From positions 1 to 48,252 of the forward strand of contig JAAXIB010000062.1 in NCBI GenBank assembly GCA_012270585.1: a stretch of DNA of 48,252 nucleotides, read 5' to 3'. A model generated the notes under the pieces. That model was not told where the DNA came from, made no database searches, and worked only from the letters and a program-made list of their open reading frames with translations. Position 1 is the first letter of the stretch. Every line of letters begins with the position of its first letter. Shown in pieces: positions 22,677-34,550 of the stretch. Made by a program: the position numbers and the translations under genes. The stretch comes from Nitrospirales bacterium. GTDB taxonomy: Bacteria; Nitrospirota; Nitrospiria; Nitrospirales; UBA8639.

Positions 22677-23756
22677 ATGCGTACCTCATTATCATGGTTT
22701 ATCGGTCTTGTACTCATAGGAACCTGCTACGTTCCGGATCCCGTCTCCGCCAACCGGATCCTCTTCAACCCGCAACAGAAGTTGCAGCTTCAACGGGTCA
22801 AGAAAATCTTCATCAAGGCGGTTGCGCTGACCGAAAAGGGATTGGTGGATCCAACCCCTATCGAAAAAGCGGCGACGGATCGACTGGCGGCAATCGGATT
22901 CACGGCCATTGCGACGGAGAACGAGCCGCATGCCGTCATGCTGAAGGTGAAATGTGAGGAGCGAAAATCCTGGAAGGGCGTCAGGAAATCCGATGGAGCG
23001 CTCCAGCAACCGGGAGCGCCTTCTCGAAATTGGAAAGGACCGGCCTGCCAGCTAGGCTACTTTTTCGACGGCCAGAAAGGGCCTTGGCAATATGAGGTAC
23101 GGACCACGTTTGAAAACGCGTGGGAGGCCGCCCGAGCCGAAGGGCACAACGATGCGGGCCAATTCGCGTTGCAGCACCTCAGCCAGGCGTTGCGGGACAG
23201 TGACTTCCCGCTTGATCTTGCAGCGGAATGGAAACAGGCCAGGCTACTCTCTTCCCTTTTGACCGATCCCCAAACCGGCAAGGCCACAAAACTCAAAATT
23301 CTCTCGCTCGCCGGCCACATGCCGGGAGACACCATGCTGCAAGCCCTTCAACGGATCAGAACCCAGGCCGAGTTCGCCGCCCCCGCCACGGTCGCCTTGG
23401 GGTTCATGGGCGAACCTGCCATTCCAACCCTCCTGGGTCTCTTATCCGATCCGTCGGTGGACATCCAAGCCGCCGCAGCGGAAGCGCTTGGGGAAATCGG
23501 CGCCCACAGCGGCAACATCGAAATCCTGCCGCCGCTCCTGGCCAAGATGGAGGCGCCCGACGTTCACCTTCGCGTTCAGACCGAAATCGTGAGGGCCATC
23601 GGGAAGACGCCGGACCTGCGGTCGCTCGAACCGCTTGAACAGTTCGCCCTGAAGGTGTGGACCGCCCGTTCAAACGATCCACTCATGCAGGAACTCAGAG
23701 AAGCCGTGGATTGGAGCCTCTGGCAGATCAACCCCACCGCGCATACCGACGAGTAG
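22677..23756 (+). CDS. Secreted HEAT-repeat protein
   Basis: A 359-residue protein with an N-terminal signal peptide (MRTSLSWFIGLVLIGTCYV ... VSAN). Residues ~25-130 form a mixed alpha/beta domain I cannot name. From ~200 there are HEAT-like helical pairs (FAAPATVALGFMGEPAIPTLLG, DIQAAAAEALGEIGAHSGN, VQTEIVRAIGKT). HEAT arrays serve as protein-binding scaffolds; the partner is unknown. Codon use is like the core genome. It is the last core gene before the accessory island, tail to tail with the unrelated HEAT gene at 23800. Confidence 0.75.
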   Translation: MRTSLSWFIGLVLIGTCYVPDPVSANRILFNPQQKLQLQRVKKIFIKAVALTEKGLVDPTPIEKAATDRLAAIGFTAIATENEPHAVMLKVKCEERKSWKGVRKSDGALQQPGAPSRNWKGPACQLGYFFDGQKGPWQYEVRTTFENAWEAARAEGHNDAGQFALQHLSQALRDSDFPLDLAAEWKQARLLSSLLTDPQTGKATKLKILSLAGHMPGDTMLQALQRIRTQAEFAAPATVALGFMGEPAIPTLLGLLSDPSVDIQAAAAEALGEIGAHSGNIEILPPLLAKMEAPDVHLRVQTEIVRAIGKTPDLRSLEPLEQFALKVWTARSNDPLMQELREAVDWSLWQINPTAHTDE

Positions 23757-23799
23757 GCACATGCTTCATTGTGTTTTAGGTACACCTTGAAAATATCTC

Positions 23800-25281
23800 T
23801 CATAGATTTTGCTTGATTAGAAACGAAATATCACTAGCAACCTTTTCAGAAGCGAGCCAGTTTGCTCCTTCACTCATCAACAACATAGGTGCAATGCGAT
23901 TAAGAAGAGGAGTGCCTTGAAGACGCTCGCGAACCAAATTAGGCGGAAGGCGGCCAAGGGTGGTAAGAATCCATGCGGGAATATTCCTATCAGAATATGA
24001 TTCCTGGACAAGAGCATCCAATACATCATTATTTCCAATAATTCGCAGAGCTTCTGATGCCGCAGGGGGTCGGCGGGTATCATCTGTTAGGAGATCTTTA
24101 ACGAGCTTGTCAATCACTGGCCGCGGCGTGTCTGTTCCAAAAGCAGCGATAGCATGCATAGCAACGTTTTCTTCGATATCGTCGATGAATGGAAGAAGGT
24201 CAGCGTAAGCTTTAAGCCCAGTCTTCCCAAGTCCCCAAACAGCAGCTTGACGGATTTCATCTCCTTGAAAAAGAGGTTCGCCTGCGATACGGATGAGCTG
24301 TCCATGCGTAAATCGCGTTTCCCCTAATTCTGTGAGGATCAGCACTGCTTCCATCCGCATCACTGGATCGGCATCTTTGTCCCAAATGAAGTGAACCATG
24401 CGTTCTTGACCTAGAGTAGAACCAAGAGAGGCTGCCGAACCGGCTGCTTCCAAGGCAACGCGGGGTTCCGGTTCTTTAGATATGTGTTCTTCAAGAGCAG
24501 AAACTGCTTGTTTCTTCAAATCCTCTCTGTGTGGAAGCGCCTTAATGGCCGCATAACGGTCAACCACGTTTGGTGAATACAAGTCATCCAGTGGTTTGAA
24601 TTTACGATTTAGATAAGAGAGAAAATCTGCCAAGCTAGATGGTGCACCTGCAAGAAAAGTGACGCCACCTTTAAAAGCATCCCCGGTTGAGAAATAAGGT
24701 GTCTTGCCTCTTAGTGTGTAGATCTGTCTCCTTGATGGGCGGTCGGGTGTCGCATACATTTCAACAATAATCTTTTCTGCATCGACTTCAAGGATGGTTC
24801 CATCACGGGAAGGAACTATAGCTGGCCAATTTCTATCTTGTTCAGCACCCTCTGCTGCAGATTTCGGATGGCCTAATTTGGACAAAACTACAGACTCTCG
24901 TAACGCCTTTACGGTAAAAAACATTGCTTCCTGAGCAAGATTGTGACCACCTTCCGAATCAAAAGATGTAATGAAAGCCACTAGATCCTCATCCCGCAAG
25001 CCCGCATCCCAAACCCGGTCAGGATTCTTGGGAGCGTCGCTCATTTTGATTTCGAGTTTGGACTTTGTACGTACCTCAACACGAAGGCCCGTTTTGACAC
25101 ATAGAACATCTGGTAAGCGTAATCGCTTAATCTTAGTCGACCAGATCTTGTTGGATCCGCAGTAGCGTTCGAGTTCAATAGGTTCAAAGCCTATATCGGC
25201 AAGCTGCTCAATTGTCCGACGAACACCCATGGCACCCATTGTCAGAAAACGGAGAAAACTCGTGTCAGTTTTGAATCCCAT
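23800..25281 (-). CDS. HEAT-repeat protein with PD-(D/E)xK-like N-terminal motif (candidate restriction nuclease)
   Basis: A 493-residue protein. Residues 50-85 read RLPDVLCVKTGLRVEVRTKS followed by KLEIK. P57-D58 with E69-V-R71 or E77-I-K79 would fit a PD-(D/E)xK nuclease core, and the segment is followed by a conserved-looking WDAGLRDEDLVAFI. From about residue 235 to the end there are HEAT-like pairs (RYAAIKALPHREDLKKQAVS, RMEAVLILTELGE, RQAAVWGLGKTG, HAIAAFGTDTPRP). The downstream-facing small HTH gene (25281-25508) shares its boundary (stop/ATG adjacent), and a DNA methylase is divergent. This is the layout of controller-regulated restriction-modification units, so a nuclease role is inferred from motif and context only; the motif is not proven. 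Confidence 0.6.
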   Translation of the reverse strand: MGFKTDTSFLRFLTMGAMGVRRTIEQLADIGFEPIELERYCGSNKIWSTKIKRLRLPDVLCVKTGLRVEVRTKSKLEIKMSDAPKNPDRVWDAGLRDEDLVAFITSFDSEGGHNLAQEAMFFTVKALRESVVLSKLGHPKSAAEGAEQDRNWPAIVPSRDGTILEVDAEKIIVEMYATPDRPSRRQIYTLRGKTPYFSTGDAFKGGVTFLAGAPSSLADFLSYLNRKFKPLDDLYSPNVVDRYAAIKALPHREDLKKQAVSALEEHISKEPEPRVALEAAGSAASLGSTLGQERMVHFIWDKDADPVMRMEAVLILTELGETRFTHGQLIRIAGEPLFQGDEIRQAAVWGLGKTGLKAYADLLPFIDDIEENVAMHAIAAFGTDTPRPVIDKLVKDLLTDDTRRPPAASEALRIIGNNDVLDALVQESYSDRNIPAWILTTLGRLPPNLVRERLQGTPLLNRIAPMLLMSEGANWLASEKVASDISFLIKQNL

Positions 25282-25508
25282 TAGGCTTTTTCCTTTGGAA
25301 TGGGCTTCAAAAGCTCGGTCGGTTCAGCCACCAAAGCTCTTGCTAGAGCATAAATATTCTCTAGAGAAACATTGCGTTGGGCACGTTCCACGGAACTTAT
25401 ATAGGTACGATGAAGTTCTGCGCGACTCGCTAGCTCTTCTTGGGAAAGGCCAGTAGAGGTTCTCAAGCGCCGAAGGTTATAGGCCAATATTTTCTTGGGA
25501 CTAGGCAT
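25281..25508 (-). CDS. Small XRE-family HTH protein (restriction-modification controller-like)
   Basis: A 75-residue protein made of one HTH-Xre domain: LAYNLRRLRTSTGLSQEELASRAELHRTYISSVERAQRN, then LENIYALARALVAEP. Length and sequence style are those of C proteins that control restriction-modification systems (short, single domain, R-T-Y-I-S-x-V-E-R recognition helix). Its final codon overlaps the HEAT-nuclease start by a single base, so both are translated from one message. The divergent DNA methylase begins 105 bases away, and an AAGTCT-AC-AGACTT palindrome lies in between. Confidence 0.82.
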   Translation of the reverse strand: MPSPKKILAYNLRRLRTSTGLSQEELASRAELHRTYISSVERAQRNVSLENIYALARALVAEPTELLKPIPKEKA

Positions 25509-25568
25509 TAGACTTGCCTCTAATTTAGAAATTATTGTTGTAAGCTAGGGTATAATTTTGTACACTTT

Positions 25569-25582
25569 AAGTCTACAGACTT
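25569..25582. promoter_or_regulatory. Candidate operator palindrome (C-box-like)
   Basis: AAGTCT, two bases, AGACTT is a perfect 6+6 dyad in the 105-bp divergent region between the controller-like HTH gene and the methylase. Controller proteins of type II systems bind GACT/AGTC-style dyads, and this matches in form. A TATAAT at about 25549-25554, just upstream, could be the -10 box of the methylase; I see no good -35 box. Confidence 0.4.
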
Positions 25583-25613
25583 CGAGTTACCCATCTGAAA
25601 GAAAACAAGTTAC

Positions 25614-27377
25614 ATGGGAGAGAATTTCTTGAAGATTGATTTGAATAAACTTTCCGAAACCATAACTGCCCCAAGAACAGACGCCGTTTACAACTGTCAT
25701 TCGTATCTGACAAAAGTTCCGTTGGCAGCCATAGAACCTCTTATTGAAGCCTATACCGAACCAGGTGATCTCGTCGTCGACTTCTTTGCTGGGTCAGGAA
25801 TGACCGGACTAGCGGCTTTGCGTTTAAACCGGCGAGCACGGTTGAGTGACATCTCTATTCTAGGCAAGCACATAGCTACGGGATACCTGACAAACGTTTC
25901 GACAGTAGAACTGACAAAAGTGGCTCAAAAAGTGATAAATGAGGCCAAAAACGCGATTGGAGGGCTGTATTTGAGCAAACGGATCTCAGATGGAGCGAAG
26001 GTCGAAGTTATAAGAACGGTTTGGTCATTTACGTATGTTTGTCCGAAGTGCAAATTAGAAATGGTTTATTTCGAGTATTTGGATAAGAAGGGGAACCCAC
26101 CAAAAGAATGTGTATCCTGTAGTGAACCTTTTGTACGTCGCAACTGGGGAAGAGGGGAAGATGTGCCTGTGGAAGTCGTCGTTCTTGGGGAGAATAACAG
26201 GCATATTGAACAGTCAGTTACAGATTATGATCGGAGAAATATTAGGGCTGCCAGTAGAGATCCACGGAAGAATGATGTCCCATCGTTGCCTATCACCGCC
26301 GACAGAGAGATGTACAGCAGGTCGGCTCTTGGAAAGTGGGGTATGGCAGAAACTGGAAAATTTTTTTCTGCCAGAAATTCGATTGCCCTTGTAGAACTTT
26401 GGAAAGCTATCAATAGACTAAAAGGCAATGACATTCGCAAAAAGTTACGGTTTGCCTTTACAGCGATTTTGCCTCGGGCATCTATGCGGTATCAGTGGAG
26501 TCCAAAGCGCCCTTTGAATGCACAAAATCAGACCTACTATGTCGCTCCGGTCTACTATGAATGGAATGTTTTTGCTTTGTTTGGAAGAAAAGTCGAAGCC
26601 GTCATCCGCGCGCAAGATGAGATATTTGGAAGGCGAACGCTGTTTGATGCTAAGAACGAAGATGACATAGTCTATGAGATAATGTCTGCTGAGAAATTAT
26701 GCCATTTGACCAATGAGTCTGCTGATTACGTATTTACCGATCCGCCTTTTGGCAGCAACATTTTTTACAGTGACATGAATCTGTTTCATGAAGCATGGCT
26801 TGGGGAGGTAACAGATCATGGAGCAGAAGCCGTCGTACATACGACCGGAAAAAGGAAGAATGGTGCGGAAGAAAAGTACGAACATCTGCTAAGAAAAGCA
26901 TTTAGTGAAGCGTGGCGAGTTTTGAAACCTGGCCGATACATGTCGGTAATTTTCGGGAACAGTAGCGGACGTATTTGGGGGCTCGTACAAAGAGCTTTAA
27001 GGGATGCAGGGTTTAAGTCAGTTCCAGTCCATGTAGGGATTTTGGATAAAGGCCAGCGATCAGTTAAGGGACTGAATTCTGGATCGGAGGGTGTTGTAAC
27101 GCTCGATTTAATTCTTACAGTGCAGAAGCCGGGGCAGGAAGAGCAGGCTGGTGAACCGCGTAGCTTAACCAACGGAGATTCAACTGCGCTAATTCAATCA
27201 GCAATTAAAGATTTGCCTGCAAAAGGGGCTCTTAATCCAAGTCATGTGTACGCTAGGGTTTTAAAGAAAGCAATTGAAAAGCATCTTGCTCTGGATGATC
27301 TTCATTTAAGTAATGTCCTGATTGCCTTAAGAAACGCAGGCTATTCTGTAGATCGGAAGACGGGTTTGCTTTTTTAG
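25614..27377 (+). CDS. DNA methyltransferase with Zn-ribbon (COG1743-type)
   Basis: A 587-residue amino-methyltransferase. The AdoMet-binding motif I is VDFFAGSGMTG (D56-G62) and the catalytic motif IV is TDPPFGSN (D376-F379), with ~320 residues between. In that interval C143-x2-C146 and C166-x2-C169 form a zinc ribbon, as in the COG1743 adenine-specific methylases. DPPF is compatible with N6-adenine or N4-cytosine methylation. The gene is divergent from the HTH and HEAT-nuclease genes, so it is likely the modification arm of a restriction-like unit. It is AT-rich compared with the core. Confidence 0.85.
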   Translation: MGENFLKIDLNKLSETITAPRTDAVYNCHSYLTKVPLAAIEPLIEAYTEPGDLVVDFFAGSGMTGLAALRLNRRARLSDISILGKHIATGYLTNVSTVELTKVAQKVINEAKNAIGGLYLSKRISDGAKVEVIRTVWSFTYVCPKCKLEMVYFEYLDKKGNPPKECVSCSEPFVRRNWGRGEDVPVEVVVLGENNRHIEQSVTDYDRRNIRAASRDPRKNDVPSLPITADREMYSRSALGKWGMAETGKFFSARNSIALVELWKAINRLKGNDIRKKLRFAFTAILPRASMRYQWSPKRPLNAQNQTYYVAPVYYEWNVFALFGRKVEAVIRAQDEIFGRRTLFDAKNEDDIVYEIMSAEKLCHLTNESADYVFTDPPFGSNIFYSDMNLFHEAWLGEVTDHGAEAVVHTTGKRKNGAEEKYEHLLRKAFSEAWRVLKPGRYMSVIFGNSSGRIWGLVQRALRDAGFKSVPVHVGILDKGQRSVKGLNSGSEGVVTLDLILTVQKPGQEEQAGEPRSLTNGDSTALIQSAIKDLPAKGALNPSHVYARVLKKAIEKHLALDDLHLSNVLIALRNAGYSVDRKTGLLF

Positions 27378-27602
27378 GCTCAGAACAAAAACAACTTAAA
27401 GAGTGAACTCCCCCTCCTCTAATAGAAGAGAATCCCGGCTACTGTGACACCCTCGATATCTAAGGACTGTGCTGGCAAGTAACAGGTTTTTACGCCAATT
27501 GATTTCTTGCTTGAGGCATTCTGTATCGCAGGATATTTCACGCTGGCGTTTTCGCTCTTTATGATTGAACTACTTAGTTGTGATCTGTTTGGCAAACGTG
27601 TC
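27378..27602. other. Gene-free gap between methylase and HTH gene
   Basis: About 225 AT-rich bases. On the minus strand a ~45-codon open stretch ending at 27419 reads SIGVKTCYLPAQSLDIEGV but has no plausible start, and may be a gene fragment. No toxin gene is present at the place where a COG5606-type antitoxin would normally have one. Confidence 0.4.
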
Positions 27603-27932
27603 ATGAAGAAGAACTGTAAAATCGAATTAGAAGATAGTTCGGGGAATGTCTTTGCCGATCTGGATCTGGACCATCCCGAAGGACTGCTCACCCGAGTCCA
27701 GCTTGGGCATTCGATAGGGATGATCCTGAAAAAACGGAACCTGAAGCAACGGGAAATAGGACAACTTCTGAGGATCAAACAACCCAAAGTTTCTAACCTG
27801 ATAAATGGACGCTACACCCTCTTTTCCCAAAAACGGTTGCTTGGCTTTCTCAATAAGTTGAACCACAAAGTCGTGGTCAAAAGCCCTTCTCGCCGCAGAG
27901 GAGAAAAACCTCAAGAGGTCGTTCTTGCCTGA
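27603..27932 (+). CDS. COG5606-type XRE/HTH protein (HigA-like), copy 1
   Basis: A 109-residue protein (MKKNCKIELEDSSGNVFADL). The HTH spans residues ~38-75 (GMILKKRNLKQREIGQLLRI ... VSNLINGRYTLFSQ) and the C-terminus is basic (SPSRRRGEKPQEVV). This is the family of antitoxins that usually follow a small RelE-like toxin gene, but no toxin is upstream. A close paralogue lies at 33353. The last bases overlap the TTG start of the TIR-APAZ gene by 8 nt (TTGCCTGA), so the two are likely translated in a coupled way and this protein may regulate the SPARTA operon. It could also simply be an orphan antitoxin whose 3' end supplies a start for the next gene. Confidence 0.75.
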   Translation: MKKNCKIELEDSSGNVFADLDLDHPEGLLTRVQLGHSIGMILKKRNLKQREIGQLLRIKQPKVSNLINGRYTLFSQKRLLGFLNKLNHKVVVKSPSRRRGEKPQEVVLA

Positions 27933-29430
27933 AACCTGTCCGCCAATTGATGAAGACAAGGAAGATGCTTCCTGCGTGCCAGCACCTGCGCAAAGGCAGG
28001 CCTTATTCATCAGTCACGCAAATCCGGAAGATAACGAATTTACCATTTGGCTCGGATCCCATCTCAGTGGAGCGGGATATGAAGTATGGGCAGATGTTTT
28101 GAAGGTGCGTGGGGGTGAAGATTGGGCAAGAAAGCTGGAGCACACACTTCGCGAACGAGCTTGTAAAGTTTTGTTGGTCGGAACGCCACGGGGGGTCGAG
28201 AAACAAGGAGTTCGAAATGAAATTCAAATTGCATCCGAAGTAGCCCAAAAGATCAACGACAAGGAATTTATTATTCCACTTCGACTACAGCATTATGACT
28301 CGCCTTTCCAAATTGTTCAGGCGCAGTATATCGATTTTCTGAATGGATGGAGCCAAGGTCTTGCCGAATTGCTAGAGACCTTAGCGGAATATGAACTTCC
28401 CCGACTCCAACTATTTCATGACGAAAGCATTCAAAATTGGCGGGCTGCCCAGTTGGTTAAAGCCCACGTGGTCCAACCGAAACCCGAGAAACTGGTTTCC
28501 AACTGGCTTCGGATTATTGAGTGGCCAAATTCCATAAAATATTTTGAGTTTAGAGTTGGAGTTTCGGAGGACCGAGTCAAGGCGATAGTGAATAGTTGTA
28601 AGTGGCCAGTCTACCCTATTGCTCGTGGATTTTGGACATGCGCAGAGAAAAGTGATTTCCATACGGACCAAGGTGAATCTTTTCCGATTCTACCTCAGAC
28701 TGAATTAGATTTTTCGCACTTTCTTGAGAATGGAAGGCGTGATTGCTCAATTAATCCCCAGGAGGCTAGAAACATCATTAGTCATTTAACAAAGTGCGCC
28801 TTAGAGAACAAGTTTCGCGATTGTAATTTATCTCCCTATGATTACGCCAATGGGGTCTTGGGGTGGTGGATCCAATCAAAGTTAATCCCAGGTGATAAAG
28901 TAACCTTCAAATGGAAAGAACGGGCATCTGGAAGGAGGCAGTTAGTTGGAGAAACGACTTCTGGACAAACAAGCATTAAATGGCATTTTGGAGTATCCTG
29001 CAAACCTTGGATTTCACCCGAATCTCATATTCGAATTCTGCCACGCATTCTTTTCACAAAAGATGGCTTGCATGCTATCGAAGATGCCAAACGCATGCAT
29101 CGTTTGCGACGATCTGTGCCCAAGTCATGGAGAAATGAACGTTGGAGAGACATGTTGCTCGCGTTTTTATTCTGGCTTTCGAAGGGAGAAGACCATGTTT
29201 TCCTCAAAACAGGATCATCTTCAGGAATAAAGATCGAAGTACCCCCTATCACGATGATTTCACCGGTCTCGGTCATTCATGACAAAAGCGAAGAGCCAGA
29301 AAAGATTGAGATTGATGATCCTGTTTTTGAAGGAAACTTTGACGAGTTTGCCGAAGAAGATTATGAAGAGGGCAACGAATCCCAACCTGACGAAGAAGAA
29401 CCATCTATACAAAGGCAAAAGAAAGATTAA
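27925..29430 (+). CDS. SPARTA TIR-APAZ protein
   Basis: A 501-residue effector. Residues ~25-165 form a TIR domain: ALFISHANPEDNEFTIWLGS, GYEVWADVLKVRGGEDWARK, VLLVGTPRG and VRNEIQIASE, with E99 as the probable NADase catalytic glutamate, then FIIPLRL. The rest (from ~185, WLRIIEWPNSIKYFEFRV to ~455) is consistent with the APAZ domain that binds short Argonaute. The final ~45 residues are strongly acidic (DEFAEEDYEEGNESQPDEEE), like the tail known to occupy the Argonaute channel in studied SPARTA complexes. SPARTA complexes hydrolyse NAD(P)+ after guide-directed detection of invading DNA. Start is TTG 27925, with AGAGGT five bases upstream; GTG 27976 is an alternative. The pAgo gene follows after 5 bases. 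Confidence 0.88.
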   Translation: MPETCPPIDEDKEDASCVPAPAQRQALFISHANPEDNEFTIWLGSHLSGAGYEVWADVLKVRGGEDWARKLEHTLRERACKVLLVGTPRGVEKQGVRNEIQIASEVAQKINDKEFIIPLRLQHYDSPFQIVQAQYIDFLNGWSQGLAELLETLAEYELPRLQLFHDESIQNWRAAQLVKAHVVQPKPEKLVSNWLRIIEWPNSIKYFEFRVGVSEDRVKAIVNSCKWPVYPIARGFWTCAEKSDFHTDQGESFPILPQTELDFSHFLENGRRDCSINPQEARNIISHLTKCALENKFRDCNLSPYDYANGVLGWWIQSKLIPGDKVTFKWKERASGRRQLVGETTSGQTSIKWHFGVSCKPWISPESHIRILPRILFTKDGLHAIEDAKRMHRLRRSVPKSWRNERWRDMLLAFLFWLSKGEDHVFLKTGSSSGIKIEVPPITMISPVSVIHDKSEEPEKIEIDDPVFEGNFDEFAEEDYEEGNESQPDEEEPSIQRQKKD

Positions 29431-29435
29431 ACATC

Positions 29436-30749
29436 GTGGAATTGGATTTTGTTGAAGAACCCAAGCTGGAATTTGCATTCGAGCAAAACGAAGAATATCC
29501 CCGTGACGGGCTTTTTCTTTTTGGCCCTATAAAAGATGAGACAGCACCAGGAGCCCTACGGTATGGGATTATTGGAACATCCGATGGGATTAACCGCTTT
29601 AAGCGGTGGGCTCAAACAATTGGAGGTTATATCAAACGATTCGAACCTCGTTTAAACCCAGAAGCCCAACACCATACTTCGTTTCCAGGATTTGAGAGCG
29701 TGTTTCGGTCCAAATGGCCCGCAGAACCCCTGACCACGATAAAAGTTTCCGAAACGGACTTGAAGAAAGCCCTTAGAATAGATAATCGTTTTGAGGCAAT
29801 CAAAAGTGCTGTTGACCTATACGTTGATCCTCTTATTAATTTTTCAAAGAGGGAAGAAGCAGAACCTGCCTTTTGGTTTGTGGTGATTCCCGAGTTTGTG
29901 TATCTACTTGGTAGACCGACCTCCAAGGTCCCCAAGAATGAAAGAACGCCAGGCAAAGTCAGCATATCACGAGCCAGAGCTCGACATATAAAAACGTCAC
30001 CCACCTTATTCGGGTATGAGGAAGAAGAAGCTGAAGTTTATAGATACTCAAAGCATTTTCGCAGGCAACTTAAAGCACGACTACTTAAAGATAAAATTGT
30101 GACACAGATTGTTCGGGAAACAACATTAACTCCTGATGACTTCAAAACAAGTTTTAGAAGTCCTATTCGTAAGATAGAAGACCCGGCCACAATTGCATGG
30201 AAACTTTGTACAACCGCTTATTATAAAGCAGGGGGCAAACCCTGGAGACTGTCTGGAGTACGACCTGGTGTGTGTTATGTGGGATTGGTCTATAAACAGA
30301 CTGAGCCCAATTCAGATGACCCCAATGCCTGCTGTGCCGCACAGATGTTTCTATCCTCTGGTGATGGCCTCGTATTCAGAGGGGCAGCCGGTCCTTGGTA
30401 TACCCCATCAAACAAAGAATATCATCTTGAAAAGAAACCTGCCGCAGAACTGATGTCATTGGTAGTATCGGAATATAAGATACTGCATGATAACCAAGAC
30501 CCGGCCGAGCTTTTTATTCATGGCCGCGCGAAATTCGATGACCAAGAGTGGGAGGGGTTTCAGTCCGCTGTCCCATCTTCAACAAATTTGGTTGGTGTTC
30601 AAATTCGGGATGCCAAATCAGAACTAAAGCTTTTTAGTCCTGGGAAATACCCAGTCATAAGAAGGAACTACACTAAAATTATCAGAACGGACCGCTTATT
30701 TATGGACAAGTGGTTATATACCCAGATTAAACACCTACCTAGGTCCTGA
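29436..30749 (+). CDS. Short prokaryotic Argonaute (SPARTA pAgo), truncated by frameshift
   Basis: Guide-binding partner of the TIR-APAZ protein, starting at GTG 29436. The MID region is present (ALRYGIIGTSDGINRFKRWA, FWFVVIPEFVYLLGR, HFRRQLKARLLKDKIVTQIV for the 5'-phosphate pocket), and the PIWI domain begins near residue 250 (CYVGLVYKQTEPNSDDPN). As in other short pAgos, the slicing tetrad is absent. This frame ends at 30749 after FMDKWLYTQIKHLPRS, 437 residues, while the proper PIWI end (LWTSGYIPRLNTYLGPETPN) continues in another frame. The shift lies at about 30687-30691, where one missing base in ACGG would restore RTGTAYLWTSGY. As it stands the protein lacks about 90 C-terminal residues that help hold the guide 5' end, so the system is probably inactive unless the shift is an assembly error or is bypassed. 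Confidence 0.85.
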   Translation: MELDFVEEPKLEFAFEQNEEYPRDGLFLFGPIKDETAPGALRYGIIGTSDGINRFKRWAQTIGGYIKRFEPRLNPEAQHHTSFPGFESVFRSKWPAEPLTTIKVSETDLKKALRIDNRFEAIKSAVDLYVDPLINFSKREEAEPAFWFVVIPEFVYLLGRPTSKVPKNERTPGKVSISRARARHIKTSPTLFGYEEEEAEVYRYSKHFRRQLKARLLKDKIVTQIVRETTLTPDDFKTSFRSPIRKIEDPATIAWKLCTTAYYKAGGKPWRLSGVRPGVCYVGLVYKQTEPNSDDPNACCAAQMFLSSGDGLVFRGAAGPWYTPSNKEYHLEKKPAAELMSLVVSEYKILHDNQDPAELFIHGRAKFDDQEWEGFQSAVPSSTNLVGVQIRDAKSELKLFSPGKYPVIRRNYTKIIRTDRLFMDKWLYTQIKHLPRS

Positions 30750-30966
30750 AACACCAAATCCTATTTTCGTTCATGTCCAAAAAGGAGATTGTCCCCTGGA
30801 TACGGTCTTAGCGGATGTAATGCGCCTGACTAAACTTAATTACAATACATGCTTGTTTAATGACCGGCTCCCCGTAACTATCAAATTCGCCAATGCCGTG
30901 GGAGAAGTCCTTATATCTGCCCCCCAGACTGAGGAGCCGAAACTTCCTTTCAAATTTTACATTTAA
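30691..30966 (+). pseudogene. Out-of-frame C-terminal part of the short pAgo gene
   Basis: In the frame starting with ACC at 30691 the translation reads TAYLWTSGYIPRLNTYLGPE, then PNPIFVHVQ, MRLTKLNYNTCLFNDRLPVT and KFANAVGEVLISAP, ending with stop TAA at 30964-30966. This is a complete Argonaute PIWI C-terminus. Joined to the preceding frame, the pAgo would be about 510 residues, the usual length for SPARTA. Confidence 0.85.
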
Positions 30967-31075
30967 CTGAAGCAAAAGAAAGTATCGCTGAGAGGTAGCT
31001 TGAGAAATCTGAACAGGGGGGATAAGTAATATTTCTGCTCGCAATCGGCATTTTTGCCGTGAACGAGGAGGGATC

Positions 31076-31345
31076 ATGATGAGACGAACACGCCGGAACC
31101 ATAGTCCGACTTTTAAGGCTAAGGTGGCGCTGGCCACCATGCGTGGAGAAAAGACGTTGTCGGAACTCGCCCAACAGTCGACGTGCATCCGAACCAGAGC
31201 AAGCAGTGGAAAGAGCAACTGCTGGTAGGCGTACCTGAGATCTTCGACAGTGGGGTGAAGAAGGCGGCTGCAACGGAGAGCGACGTTGAGCTATGTGGAG
31301 CAGCGGTCGATAGGTCAACAGCGCCGTTCACTGGGCTGGAATAAT
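31076..31345 (+). mobile_element. Remnant of an IS3-family orfA
   Basis: From ATG 31076 the translation MMRRTRRNHSPTFKAKVALA, then RGEKTLSELAQQ, is the start of an IS3-family OrfA. After a 2-base deletion near 31178 the proper frame continues DVHPNQSKQWKEQLL and EIFDSGVKKAAATESDVE, then decays. Nothing of orfB remains; the 3' end of a DUF2971 gene on the other strand begins at 31328. A GAGGAGG ribosome-binding site precedes the ATG. The terminal inverted repeats cannot be recognised. Confidence 0.75.
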
Positions 31346-32116
31346 TTTGAGAGAATAGCTATCGTCGCTCAATTGTGCTTCATAATATTCCACGGTCGTC
31401 TCCCGATCCTTGCACCAATCGCGAATCATCTTCTTGTGATTTTCCGGCATCCTGCAGCCGAAGATGACTCCCGTTAAGAGTCTAGACGAAAACTGATGCG
31501 GCCCTGGGCCGTTTGGATCCACCATCCGCCATTCCTCCTCATATTTCCACTGATTCGCTTTTGTAAGAATCGTTTTTTCTGCCAATACTTTGTCCGTGTC
31601 GTGAAGCCGATTGACGACTGGATATTTGTCGGAGTACTTGACCCGATGTGGTTCGAGGATCTCGTACTCTCTGCGTGGCTTCGGTTCCACTAAAAACTCA
31701 AGACAAAACCCACGGTGTGCATTTGCATAGTGTGCCCACATGAGAATGTTATCTCGGACTTTGGAGAAACAGCATATTCCATACGTTCCGACTTCTTGTA
31801 TGGCGGCCTCTTGCACCATTTTTTTAGAATCGTGACTATTTAAATACGCGCTGAATTGAATAGCTTTCGCGCGAAGCTGTTGCCCGTTAAGAGATGAGTC
31901 TTGTCCTTTTAATAACTTCTCGCAGAATTTAAGTTTCTCATCGTCAGAACCGATAAGTTCGACTCTGAACCTGCAATCGAATGGATCGTTGAAATCATCG
32001 GCTGTACAAAAATGCAGCTCATTATGAGTGAATATACGGCTGGAATGTTCTGGAGCAGCTTGATCGATATATTTGTATTTGTAGAAATACACCGGACGAT
32101 CAGGTGATTGGATCAT
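31328..32116 (-). CDS. DUF2971 family protein
   Basis: A 262-residue protein with the DUF2971 signatures YKYIDQAAPEHSSRIFTHNE, LHFCTADDFNDPFDCRF, GICCFSKVRDNILMWAHYA, HRGFCLEF and KANQWKYEEEWRMV. This family is widespread in defence and mobile regions, but its function is unproven; it has been suggested to have abortive-infection roles only by context. It lies downstream of the DUF4258/MqsA-like pair on the same strand and could share its promoter. Its ATG overlaps the stop of a 10-codon reading frame that carries the ribosome-binding site. Confidence 0.8.
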   Translation of the reverse strand: MIQSPDRPVYFYKYKYIDQAAPEHSSRIFTHNELHFCTADDFNDPFDCRFRVELIGSDDEKLKFCEKLLKGQDSSLNGQQLRAKAIQFSAYLNSHDSKKMVQEAAIQEVGTYGICCFSKVRDNILMWAHYANAHRGFCLEFLVEPKPRREYEILEPHRVKYSDKYPVVNRLHDTDKVLAEKTILTKANQWKYEEEWRMVDPNGPGPHQFSSRLLTGVIFGCRMPENHKKMIRDWCKDRETTVEYYEAQLSDDSYSLKIIPAQ

Positions 32117-32145
32117 GGTCTGGACCGATCTTTAGCCTTTTTCAT
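32113..32145 (-). CDS. 10-codon leader reading frame upstream of DUF2971
   Basis: ATG 32145 reads MKKAKDRSRP then TGA. GGAGG lies 7 bases before it, and the stop overlaps the DUF2971 start (ATGA). DUF2971 has no ribosome-binding site of its own, so this frame may start its translation by coupling. It could also be a relic of a longer N-terminus. Confidence 0.35.
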   Translation of the reverse strand: MKKAKDRSRP

Positions 32146-32167
32146 AATGCTTCCTCCTTCTCTTCGT

Positions 32168-32680
32168 CTATGCCGCCACACGCCATTGATTTTTGATGAG
32201 TTGAAAGGTGGGCTTCCTCTTCCCTTTAGGCTGCTTCGCCATCATGAGTCGCTTCGCAAAGTCGAGCAGGGCTTCCTTGCCAGGCTCACCTGCACTTGCT
32301 TCTCGAATGAACACACGAGCTAAGGTATCGCCGGTTTCACCAAGATTTTTATATTTCCCATTTTCAACCCGCGAGAGATGAGCGGGGTTAATCCGCAAAA
32401 GTGCCGCTAACTCCTGCGCCCGGAAGCCGGCATGCTTGCGGAGATAGCGCAATTCTTGACCAGTTAAGAGCCCTGGTTTGCACAACAAGTTCCCGGCAAT
32501 GAGATCCATCAAAGGCCCAAGCATGGGAATCTCCACGTCATACTCACGGCAAGACGCACAATGATGTAACGTGACACCGGACAGGTAGATATTGCTCAAC
32601 CCACTTTCCACGAAGCGGTAAGGCTTCTCAATCGTTGTGCGTTCTGGCACCAAGGCGCCTCCGCATTTTAGACATTTCAT
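32168..32680 (-). CDS. MqsA-like antitoxin (Zn-finger + HTH)
   Basis: A 170-residue protein. The N-terminus has two CxxC pairs (MKCLKCGGALVPERTT, then HHCASCREYD), a zinc-binding fold as in MqsA and YgiT. Residues ~75-125 hold an XRE-type HTH: LTGQELRYLRKHAGFRAQEL, ALLRINPAHLSRVENGKYKN. The gene overlaps the DUF4258 gene by 4 nt, in the toxin-first order usual for this type. DNA binding and autoregulation of the pair are inferred from family. Confidence 0.82.
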   Translation of the reverse strand: MKCLKCGGALVPERTTIEKPYRFVESGLSNIYLSGVTLHHCASCREYDVEIPMLGPLMDLIAGNLLCKPGLLTGQELRYLRKHAGFRAQELAALLRINPAHLSRVENGKYKNLGETGDTLARVFIREASAGEPGKEALLDFAKRLMMAKQPKGKRKPTFQLIKNQWRVAA

Positions 32681-32985
32681 GAGATCCTCCTTTCACCAAT
32701 GACCGTAACGATGATGAGTGCGTCTTCGATTTCAACTACACAAGACCCTTGTTTATTATTCAGGGTGTGCCCCTCGATTTTATAACGCCAAGTCCCTTCT
32801 GGCATGGAGTGATCCATTAACTGGCCATACCATAAAATGTTTTTCACATCTTGGATTGTGATGTTCCGTTCGGCCATACGCTTGCGGGCATGGTGCCGAA
32901 TGATGACAGCGTTGTTATTCCAGCGTTCCTTGATCGCCGCCTTAAGTCGTCGTTCTCCCAGTGGCTTAGCATGATAAATCGTCAA
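32677..32985 (-). CDS. DUF4258 domain protein (candidate toxin)
   Basis: A 102-residue protein with the typical DUF4258 pattern: IRHHARKRMAERNITIQDVK, NILWYGQLMDHS, GTWRYKIEGHTLNNKQG and VVEIEDALIIVTVIGERR. DUF4258 is related in fold to RelE/ParE-like toxins and is paired here with an MqsA-like antitoxin, so a ribonuclease-like toxin role is likely but unproven. Its stop overlaps the antitoxin start. Confidence 0.75.
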   Translation of the reverse strand: MTIYHAKPLGERRLKAAIKERWNNNAVIIRHHARKRMAERNITIQDVKNILWYGQLMDHSMPEGTWRYKIEGHTLNNKQGSCVVEIEDALIIVTVIGERRIS

Positions 32986-33029
32986 TTTTAGAATTATAGA
33001 AAAAATATTGATAATTTATCAAGAAACGT

Positions 33030-33275
33030 CTACTCTTGGTAGTGTCTCAGTTTGAATTTCCCTTTCCGCAGCAATGTCCTTCTTTGTCATCCTCGACGCT
33101 TGTCCCCGACTTGATCGGGGATCCAGGCAATCTACAAGGATCCAGGGTCTTTGCTTTTTCCTTCGAGTGGAAAGACAAAAAACTCTGGATCCCCGATCGG
33201 GGTCGGGGATGACAGAAAGGAGCCCCCGGCCTCGGAGAGAGAGCGGAATTCAAACTGAGACACTACCCTACTCTT
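33030..33275. repeat. 8-bp target-site duplication flanking a MITE
   Basis: CTACTCTT occurs at 33030-33037 immediately before the left inverted repeat and again at 33268-33275 immediately after the right one. This is a direct duplication of the insertion target. Confidence 0.75.
33038..33267. mobile_element. MITE-like element, 230 bp
   Basis: The ends are 21-bp perfect inverted repeats (GGTAGTGTCTCAGTTTGAATT at 33038-33058 and its complement at 33247-33267), flanked by an 8-bp direct duplication. The interior contains a second imperfect palindrome (GTCATCC-type arms around 33087-33127 and 33185-33213, each with GATCGGGGATCCAG-like parts). There is no coding capacity, so movement would need a transposase in trans. 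An 8-bp duplication is typical for families such as IS1595, but the source family is not identified. Confidence 0.75.
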
Positions 33276-33352: not shown

Positions 33353-33682
33353 ATGAAGGAGAGCCCCCAAATCGAATTTGAAGAAAGTTCGGGCAATGTC
33401 TTTGCCGACCTGGGCCTGGACCATCCCGAAGAACTGCTCACCCGAGCGCAGCTAGGACATTCGGTGAGGATGATCCTTGAAAAACGAAACCTGAAACAAC
33501 GGGAAATAGGAAAACTTCTCGGGATCAAACAACCTGAAGTATCCAACCTGATGAATGGACGCTACACGCTCTTTTCCCAGGAACGGTTGTTTGGCTTTCT
33601 CAACCAGTTGGACCACAAAGTCACGGTCAAAGTCACACCCCGCCGCAGGGGAGAAAAACCACAAGAGGTCGTTTTTGCCTGA
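33353..33682 (+). CDS. COG5606-type XRE/HTH protein, copy 2
   Basis: A 109-residue paralogue of the protein at 27603 (MKESPQIEFEESSGNVFADL; HTH RMILEKRNLKQREIGKLLGI ... VSNLMNGRYTLFSQ; C-terminus TPRRRGEKPQEVVFA). At DNA level the two genes look roughly 85% alike by eye, including the last bases and stop. No toxin gene is upstream; the preceding element is the MITE. Its function would be autoregulation or antitoxin action, but it is orphaned. The two copies form direct repeats around ~5.4 kb of SPARTA and other defence genes. Confidence 0.75.
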   Translation: MKESPQIEFEESSGNVFADLGLDHPEELLTRAQLGHSVRMILEKRNLKQREIGKLLGIKQPEVSNLMNGRYTLFSQERLFGFLNQLDHKVTVKVTPRRRGEKPQEVVFA

Positions 33683-33788: not shown

Positions 33789-34079
33789 ATGTTTATTCGT
33801 TCCGTGCGTCATCGAGGGTTGAGACGCCTTATTGAAGACAATCAAACCAGAGGCCTCCGGCCCGATCTGGTGAGCCGGATACGCAACATTTTCACGACAC
33901 TTATTTTGGCCGACAATATGGGGATGTTTCTAGAGTCAGCCCCTCCAGGATGGCGCGTGCATCGGCTTTCGGGGGAACGGAAAGACACTTGGAGCGTGTC
34001 CACTTCGGGAAACTGGCGGATCACTTTTGAGGAAGATGACGGATATTTGGATGTGTTAGATTTGGAGGATTACCACTGA
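33789..34079 (+). CDS. higB: HigB-type toxin (RelE/ParE superfamily)
   Basis: A 96-residue protein. GLRRLIEDNQTRGLRPDLVS, then PPGWRVHRLSGERKDTWSVS and GNWRITFEEDDGYLDVLDLE match the HigB/YoeB-like ribonuclease fold that cleaves mRNA at the ribosome. The toxin-first order and its 1-nt overlap with higA (TGATG) fit the type II HigBA arrangement. It sits in a 779-bp interval between two tRNA-Arg-derived direct repeats. Confidence 0.88.
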   Translation: MFIRSVRHRGLRRLIEDNQTRGLRPDLVSRIRNIFTTLILADNMGMFLESAPPGWRVHRLSGERKDTWSVSTSGNWRITFEEDDGYLDVLDLEDYH

Positions 34080-34384
34080 TGAAAGAGAAAGGGATGAAAA
34101 TAGGGATGAAGCCGTCCCATCCCGGGGCCTTCATCAAGACCGAAGTGCTCGACAAACTTGGTCTAAGTGTCACGAGAGCAGCAGAGGTTTTAGGGGTGCG
34201 CCGCGCCACCCTGTCAGATTTGCTGAACGAAAAGGCGGCATTGTCGCCGGAGATGGCCTTACGACTGGAAAAAGCTTTTCAGCTCAACATGGATATGCTG
34301 TTAAGAATGCAAGCATGGTATGACGCAACGGAGATGCGAAAGCAGGCAGGAACAATCAAGATTGCGCCCTATGTACCTGCATAG
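34079..34384 (+). CDS. higA: HigA-type antitoxin
   Basis: A 101-residue protein with an XRE HTH: HPGAFIKTEVLDKLGLSVTR, AAEVLGVRRATLSDLLNEKA, LSPEMALRLEKAFQLNMDML, the classical HigA motif. It neutralises HigB and represses its own promoter. GGAGGA at 34064-34069 within the higB 3' end supplies its ribosome-binding site, 9 bases before ATG. Confidence 0.9.
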   Translation: MKEKGMKIGMKPSHPGAFIKTEVLDKLGLSVTRAAEVLGVRRATLSDLLNEKAALSPEMALRLEKAFQLNMDMLLRMQAWYDATEMRKQAGTIKIAPYVPA

Positions 34385-34471: not shown

Positions 34472-34490
34472 AAATGGCGCGCCCGAGAGG
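34472..34490. repeat. attachment-like direct repeat, tRNA-Arg proximal copy
   Basis: AAATGGCGCGCCCGAGAGG covers the CCA end and acceptor/T-arm part of tRNA-Arg(ACG), and matches 33693-33711 exactly. Outside the 19 bases the flanks differ. Confidence 0.6.
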
Positions 34491-34550
34491 AGTCGAACCT
34501 CTAACCTTTTGATCCGTAGTCAAATGCTCTATCCATTGAGCTACGGGCGC
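34475..34550 (-). tRNA. tRNA-Arg (ACG)
   Basis: A 76-nt cloverleaf on the minus strand with encoded CCA. Acceptor GCGCCCG/CGGGCGC, D-arm AGCTCAATGGATAGAGC, anticodon loop CTACGGA (anticodon ACG, bases 34515-34517), T-loop GGTTCGACTCC. Arg-ACG reads CGN codons after conversion of A34 to inosine. The 3' 16 nt lie within a direct repeat. Confidence 0.95.

Follow-up and report, generated by a model that had tools for sequence, protein, structure and literature searches.

A candidate C-regulated type II-like restriction–modification system whose predicted endonuclease joins a PD-(D/E)xK-like motif to an RNA-polymerase-beta-like domain and a HEAT array

The window analysed here is the whole of a 48,252 nt stretch of contig JAAXIB010000062.1 (GCA_012270585.1, Nitrospirales bacterium, UBA8639). 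Three genes, referred to as R, C and M, lie side by side within it. R (23800-25281, reverse strand) encodes a predicted restriction endonuclease of 493 residues, assigned from its open reading frame, a HEAT_2 match, structure models and conservation. C (25281-25508, reverse strand) encodes a controller-type helix–turn–helix (HTH) regulator of 75 residues, assigned from its open reading frame, PADLOC and synteny; its stop codon overlaps the start of R by one base. M (25614-27377, forward strand) is divergent and encodes a Zn-ribbon DNA amino-methyltransferase of 587 residues, assigned from Pfam, PADLOC and synteny. An earlier note on this DNA had listed the same three reading frames, and its positions and lengths were exact, as were the contact between C and R and the divergence of M. 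C was matched by HTH_3 in Pfam (4.9e-13) and by Control_protein in PADLOC (6.5e-22), in line with the controller-type HTH that had been read upstream of R. M was matched by N6_N4_Mtase in Pfam (3.3e-19) and by MTase_II in PADLOC (5e-100). It is an N4/N6 amino-methyltransferase with a CxxC...CxxC ribbon between motif I (DFFAGSGMTGLAAL) and DPPF, so the description of a Zn-ribbon methylase facing R was also correct. In R, Pfam HEAT_2 was matched in four stretches from about residue 236 (2.2e-10), and no ATPase or helicase family was found by Pfam.

Relatives of R were found at 16 loci elsewhere. With the window copy included, a DNA methyltransferase adjoins R at 17/17 loci, a count that includes a partial M at a contig end (L022) and one decayed locus (L057); the two predicted activities of a type II system are thereby assigned to separate, adjacent genes throughout. 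Homologues unlinked to methylases, which the earlier note would have held against its own reading, were not among these copies. Full-length relatives are rare and widely spread: among 236 genomes of the window's order, R was found only in the window and at locus L002. Across some 80 genomes of the phylum, low-scoring matches covered only residues of about 230-470 and were rejected as other HEAT proteins.

The loci fall into two clades. Clade A comprises ten loci including the window, with R proteins 54-63% identical to that of the window. In 10/10 of these, C lies directly upstream of R and a Zn-ribbon M is divergent (M proteins 57-69% identical, that of L022 being truncated at the contig end). 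Besides L002, from the window's own order, clade A includes six contigs titled Gammaproteobacteria, Eggerthellaceae, Acidobacteria, Proteobacteria, Kiloniellaceae and Phormidium, one alphaproteobacterial contig and one viral contig; these taxa were taken from the contig titles of binned genomes, in which single contigs may be mislabelled. No match to R was obtained in the plasmid and phage collections, and further viral scans returned the same contig only. The search for the three-gene set that had been suggested earlier thus recovered it at ten loci of unrelated taxa from several phyla, and this recurrence is more than chance. The spread over so many records argues for horizontal transfer, and C-R-M is a genuine, horizontally mobile restriction–modification system.

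Clade B comprises seven loci, with R proteins 24-30% identical to that of the window. L003, L004 and L005 are from the window's phylum, L029 is a viral contig, and L055, L056 and L057 are from the phylum of the Acidobacteria locus. These loci lack C, and R precedes a methyltransferase gene of the same orientation, whose product of 337-397 residues resembles M.PvuII. L057 (275-4510) is a decaying copy in which R is frameshifted and M is interrupted near genes resembling those of an IS607-type transposon. At L003, a second, unrelated methyltransferase (480-1424; PADLOC MTase_II, 1.6e-75) lies directly upstream of R.

The intergenic DNA between M and C of the clade A loci is poorly conserved apart from one block. 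Its core, AGTCTGTAGAC (11 bp; 25571-25581, reverse strand), is invariant in 10/10 loci, and CAGA precedes it by a fixed 12 bp in all ten intergenic regions. In the window, the core is surrounded on the same strand by a 14 bp imperfect palindrome, AAGTCTGTAGACTT, of the form AAGTCT-GT-AGACTT. Alignment of the ten regions gave an extended conserved block, CAGATGGGTAACTCGAAGTCTGTAGACTTAAAGTGTACA (25560-25597, reverse strand), which probably overlaps the divergent promoters. The core has one exact copy in the 2.5 Mb genome, at this locus, and even with one mismatch allowed it is single-copy in the window. The extended pattern was found in the viral collection only on the clade A contig. Judged by its position and conservation, AGTCTGTAGAC is the natural putative operator for C; a small HTH gene upstream of R and a putative operator between divergent genes make up the layout of a C-protein-controlled restriction–modification system.

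The surrounding DNA points to a mobile cassette. From about 23.8 to 36 kb the GC content is 44-48%, down from about 55%, with an adjoining tRNA-Arg at 34475-34550. In a complete genome of the same genus (G081, locus L088), the flanks are joined and window positions 23759-33268 are missing. Another genome (G065, locus L089) has the SPARTA part, 92% identical, but no C-R-M, and its parts occur in another order. The empty site in the first genome and the presence of SPARTA without C-R-M in the second indicate that C-R-M is a separate cassette within a defence island. Neighbours of other clade A loci include Gabija genes (L025), GajA (L026) and a Ppl-like gene (L023). The island of the window contains a SPARTA-type pair (27925-30749) of a TIR-APAZ protein (501 residues) and a short prokaryotic Argonaute (437 residues), matched in PADLOC at 2e-148 and 2.1e-153, and a DUF2971 protein (31328-32116) that matches the PADLOC candidate PDC-S31 (2.9e-58). 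Two similar HTH genes, at 27579-27932 and 33353-33682, flank SPARTA; both are about 85-91% alike in DNA to one sister-genome gene, and the two may be recombination points for the island. Two toxin–antitoxin-like pairs, each a small partner with an HTH protein, lie at 32168-32985 and 33789-34384 beside the tRNA-Arg. On the other side of R, a HEAT-repeat protein with a signal-like N-terminus (22677-23756), unrelated to R, is kept in 14/14 genomes of the genus and is probably a housekeeping flank.

R was modelled with AlphaFold2 (mean pLDDT 85-86) and divided into a nuclease-like part (residues 1-147), a barrel-sandwich-hybrid (BSH) domain resembling that of RNA polymerase beta (148-218) and a HEAT array (219-493). 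The model of the first part has a helix at 7-29, strands at 34-36, 59-61, 66-73, 78-82 and 100-109, and some smaller elements. D58 stands at the start of strand 59-61, and R67, E69, R71 and K73 alternate along one side of strand 66-73. In an alignment of 16 full-length relatives, Lys4, Asp6, Glu36, Glu38, Trp47, Lys50, Lys52, Arg53, Arg55, D58, R67, E69, K73, Ser81, Arg89, Trp91 and Asp99 are invariant and P57 and R71 are nearly so; the loop at 40-54 is strongly conserved, although the confidence of the model is low there. The putative active site, as placed on the model, is D58 with E69-x-R71-x-K73. Of the two candidate sites named in the earlier note, that of D58, E69 and R71 therefore stands, with D58 and E69 invariant. 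The alternative, E77-I-K79, was discarded, since E77 is lysine in 9/10 clade A members and K79 is replaced by arginine or serine.

The likeness to PD-(D/E)xK nucleases lies in an aspartate that starts one strand and an E-x-R/K on the adjacent one; the difference lies in the residue at E+2, usually lysine in these enzymes but arginine in 15/16 relatives and lysine (K71) in one. Of the alpha-beta-beta-beta-alpha-beta core, the helix and strands are present in the model, whereas the helix between strands three and four is short and nearly absent. With the N-terminal model, Foldseek returned archaeal Hjc resolvases as the nearest nuclease folds (2wiz and 2wcw, E 0.03-0.04, probability 0.84-0.90) and a viral PD(D/E)XK protein (probability 0.66). 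These are second-tier matches; no nuclease-domain match at E <= 0.001 was found in this search, whose matches were swamped by the RNA polymerase domain. The domain has no Pfam family, and its profile gave nothing significant against the sequences of solved structures. A search for the Hjc family in the window's own genome gave one borderline match, elsewhere. The structure prediction that had been proposed as a check on a PD-(D/E)xK fold thus placed the motif on the expected strands and gave no confident fold match, and the assignment draws on motif, topology and second-tier matches. R could instead be a restriction endonuclease of another kind, with D58, E69 and K73 in a different metal-dependent site; the second-tier matches, the exchange of lysine for arginine and the nearly absent helix would suit such an enzyme. 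We consider this unlikely, as D-x10-E-x-R/K-x-K is invariant on the two expected strands and Hjc and the viral PD(D/E)XK protein are the best named matches outside the BSH.

The second domain is absent from the earlier reading of R. Residues 148-218 superimpose on the BSH domain of RNA polymerase beta with a VIA-align Z of 9.7 and an r.m.s.d. of 1.0 over 55 residues (31% identical). With the BSH profile, beta subunits ranked first among solved chains (E 0.03), and a comparison with an rpoB fragment in hhalign gave a probability of 95.7% (E 8.9e-9). By model and profile, then, this segment is related to the BSH domain of RNA polymerase beta. A longer N-terminal profile also matched rpoB frames in genomes; these long-frame matches at 148-215 are rpoB and were not counted as relatives of R. 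R itself is not an RNA polymerase: it has this single domain, which lacks the long loop seen in rpoB and is set within a restriction protein.

In the model, helical HEAT repeats occupy about residues 221-490 which, together with the HEAT_2 match, bears out the long array described earlier. When the whole of R was used for a fold search, designed armadillo and alphaRep proteins crowded out other matches. The pI calculated for the HEAT part of six members is acidic, at 4.6-5.4; for the most part, the nuclease domain and the BSH range from neutral to basic. From clade A to clade B, identity is 43% in the nuclease part, 19% in the BSH and 21% in the HEAT array. An acidic array would make a poor DNA clamp; diverged and acidic as it is, the array is more likely a scaffold, and we infer a scaffolding or dimerization role. 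Since the target must differ between the two clades, we suspect that the BSH, or loops near it, takes part in target reading.

A different use of the array had been proposed, namely that it senses DNA or a phage protein; for this we found no support, the array being acidic. In the fuller form of that idea, R would be a methylation-dependent or sensor nuclease acting with M, unleashed when its HEAT array recognizes either a phage protein or altered DNA, instead of an enzyme that cuts at fixed sites lacking methylation. HEAT arrays are common protein-binding scaffolds, this one is by charge not DNA-binding, and R lies in a defence island with SPARTA, all of which would fit. Yet R accompanies methyltransferases of entirely different families (Zn-ribbon in clade A, M.PvuII-like in clade B), clade A keeps the C gene and operator that go with an endonuclease both toxic and site-specific, and the small BSH varies at least as much as the HEAT array, so that a sensor appears improbable. 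AlkD is a HEAT-like glycosylase, and R might on that likeness be an AlkD-like HEAT-repeat DNA glycosylase, removing a base from sites that are unmethylated, in the manner of restriction glycosylases. Base-excision restriction enzymes do exist (PMC10273834). The conserved catalytic-looking residues of R, however, are in the N-terminal domain and not in the HEAT region, which is acidic, and among the matches listed generic HEAT_2, designed alphaRep or repeat proteins and importins appear instead of AlkD; we regard a glycosylase as very improbable. R is very probably a restriction endonuclease.

The clade B methylases bear on its target. Those of L003, L004 and L005 share 62-67% identity with M.PvuII from plasmid pPvu1 over 286-307 residues, a high identity across the whole enzyme, and carry the SPPF motif. 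M.PvuII modifies CAGCTG. By analogy, clade B R should cut CAGCTG, and it stands in the slot of R.PvuII. The R.PvuII family itself was rejected for R, since hhalign gave no sign of a relation (probability 0.1). Elsewhere, M.PvuII-like genes adjoin PvuII or other unrelated endonucleases, one of them annotated as HNH, which shows that exchange of the R gene beside this methylase happens.

Among known systems, clade A most resembles the C-regulated type II systems of the PvuII (pPvu1) and Esp1396I kind, in which M is divergent, C touches R from upstream and a palindromic operator lies between M and C. M.PvuII resembles the clade B enzymes; the clade A methylase is an unrelated Zn-ribbon protein, and the C gene of the PvuII and Esp1396I kind is missing from clade B. 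R.PvuII has 157 residues and no extra domains, in contrast to the BSH and HEAT parts of the 493-residue R. HEAT, CxxC and PD-(D/E)xK are named together in one defence protein, PADLOC HEAT_CxxC_PDDEXK (PDLC01150). This profile gave a weak match over the nuclease motif in two members of clade B (E 0.007 and 0.013) and none to the window R, and its HEAT part is N-terminal (profile positions 1-110), that of R being C-terminal. With a weak match and a reversed domain order, the profile was rejected as a family assignment for R. The R family is named by none of the Pfam, NCBIfam, PADLOC or PHROG models, and no description of HEAT-repeat restriction enzymes was found in the literature (REBASE was outside the scope); within these bounds, the earlier suggestion of an undescribed restriction–modification variant holds.

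Synteny, the operator and the pairing of clade B with M.PvuII-like enzymes all favour the C-controlled unit proposed earlier, in which R combines a PD-(D/E)xK-like motif with HEAT repeats. We put the probability of a type II-like restriction–modification system with a controller gene and a PD-(D/E)xK-type endonuclease at roughly 0.84. In such a system, M would methylate the target sites of the host and R, with D58, E69, R71 and K73 as catalytic residues, would cut the sites of M wherever methylation is absent. C, co-translated with R, would bind AGTCTGTAGAC between M and C and would delay R until the chromosome is protected by M. The HEAT array would most likely join two R subunits, or position the nuclease and the small basic BSH on DNA. 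We further lean towards an undescribed endonuclease family, with nuclease, BSH and HEAT array in that order, that has been brought together by recombination with two or more unrelated families of methyltransferase and with two modes of regulation, so that an exchangeable or rapidly changing part of R would carry the reading of the target.

Large helical-repeat arrays in type II endonucleases are not described in the libraries and literature covered, and an RNA-polymerase-beta-like domain is unexpected in a restriction enzyme. The CAGCTG predicted from the clade B methylase makes R testable on a known site, where it could be compared with the unrelated R.PvuII, which is expected to read that sequence too and is a third as long. 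If R cuts, it would represent a new architecture in a well studied enzyme class and would raise the question of what use a HEAT array is to a site-specific nuclease.
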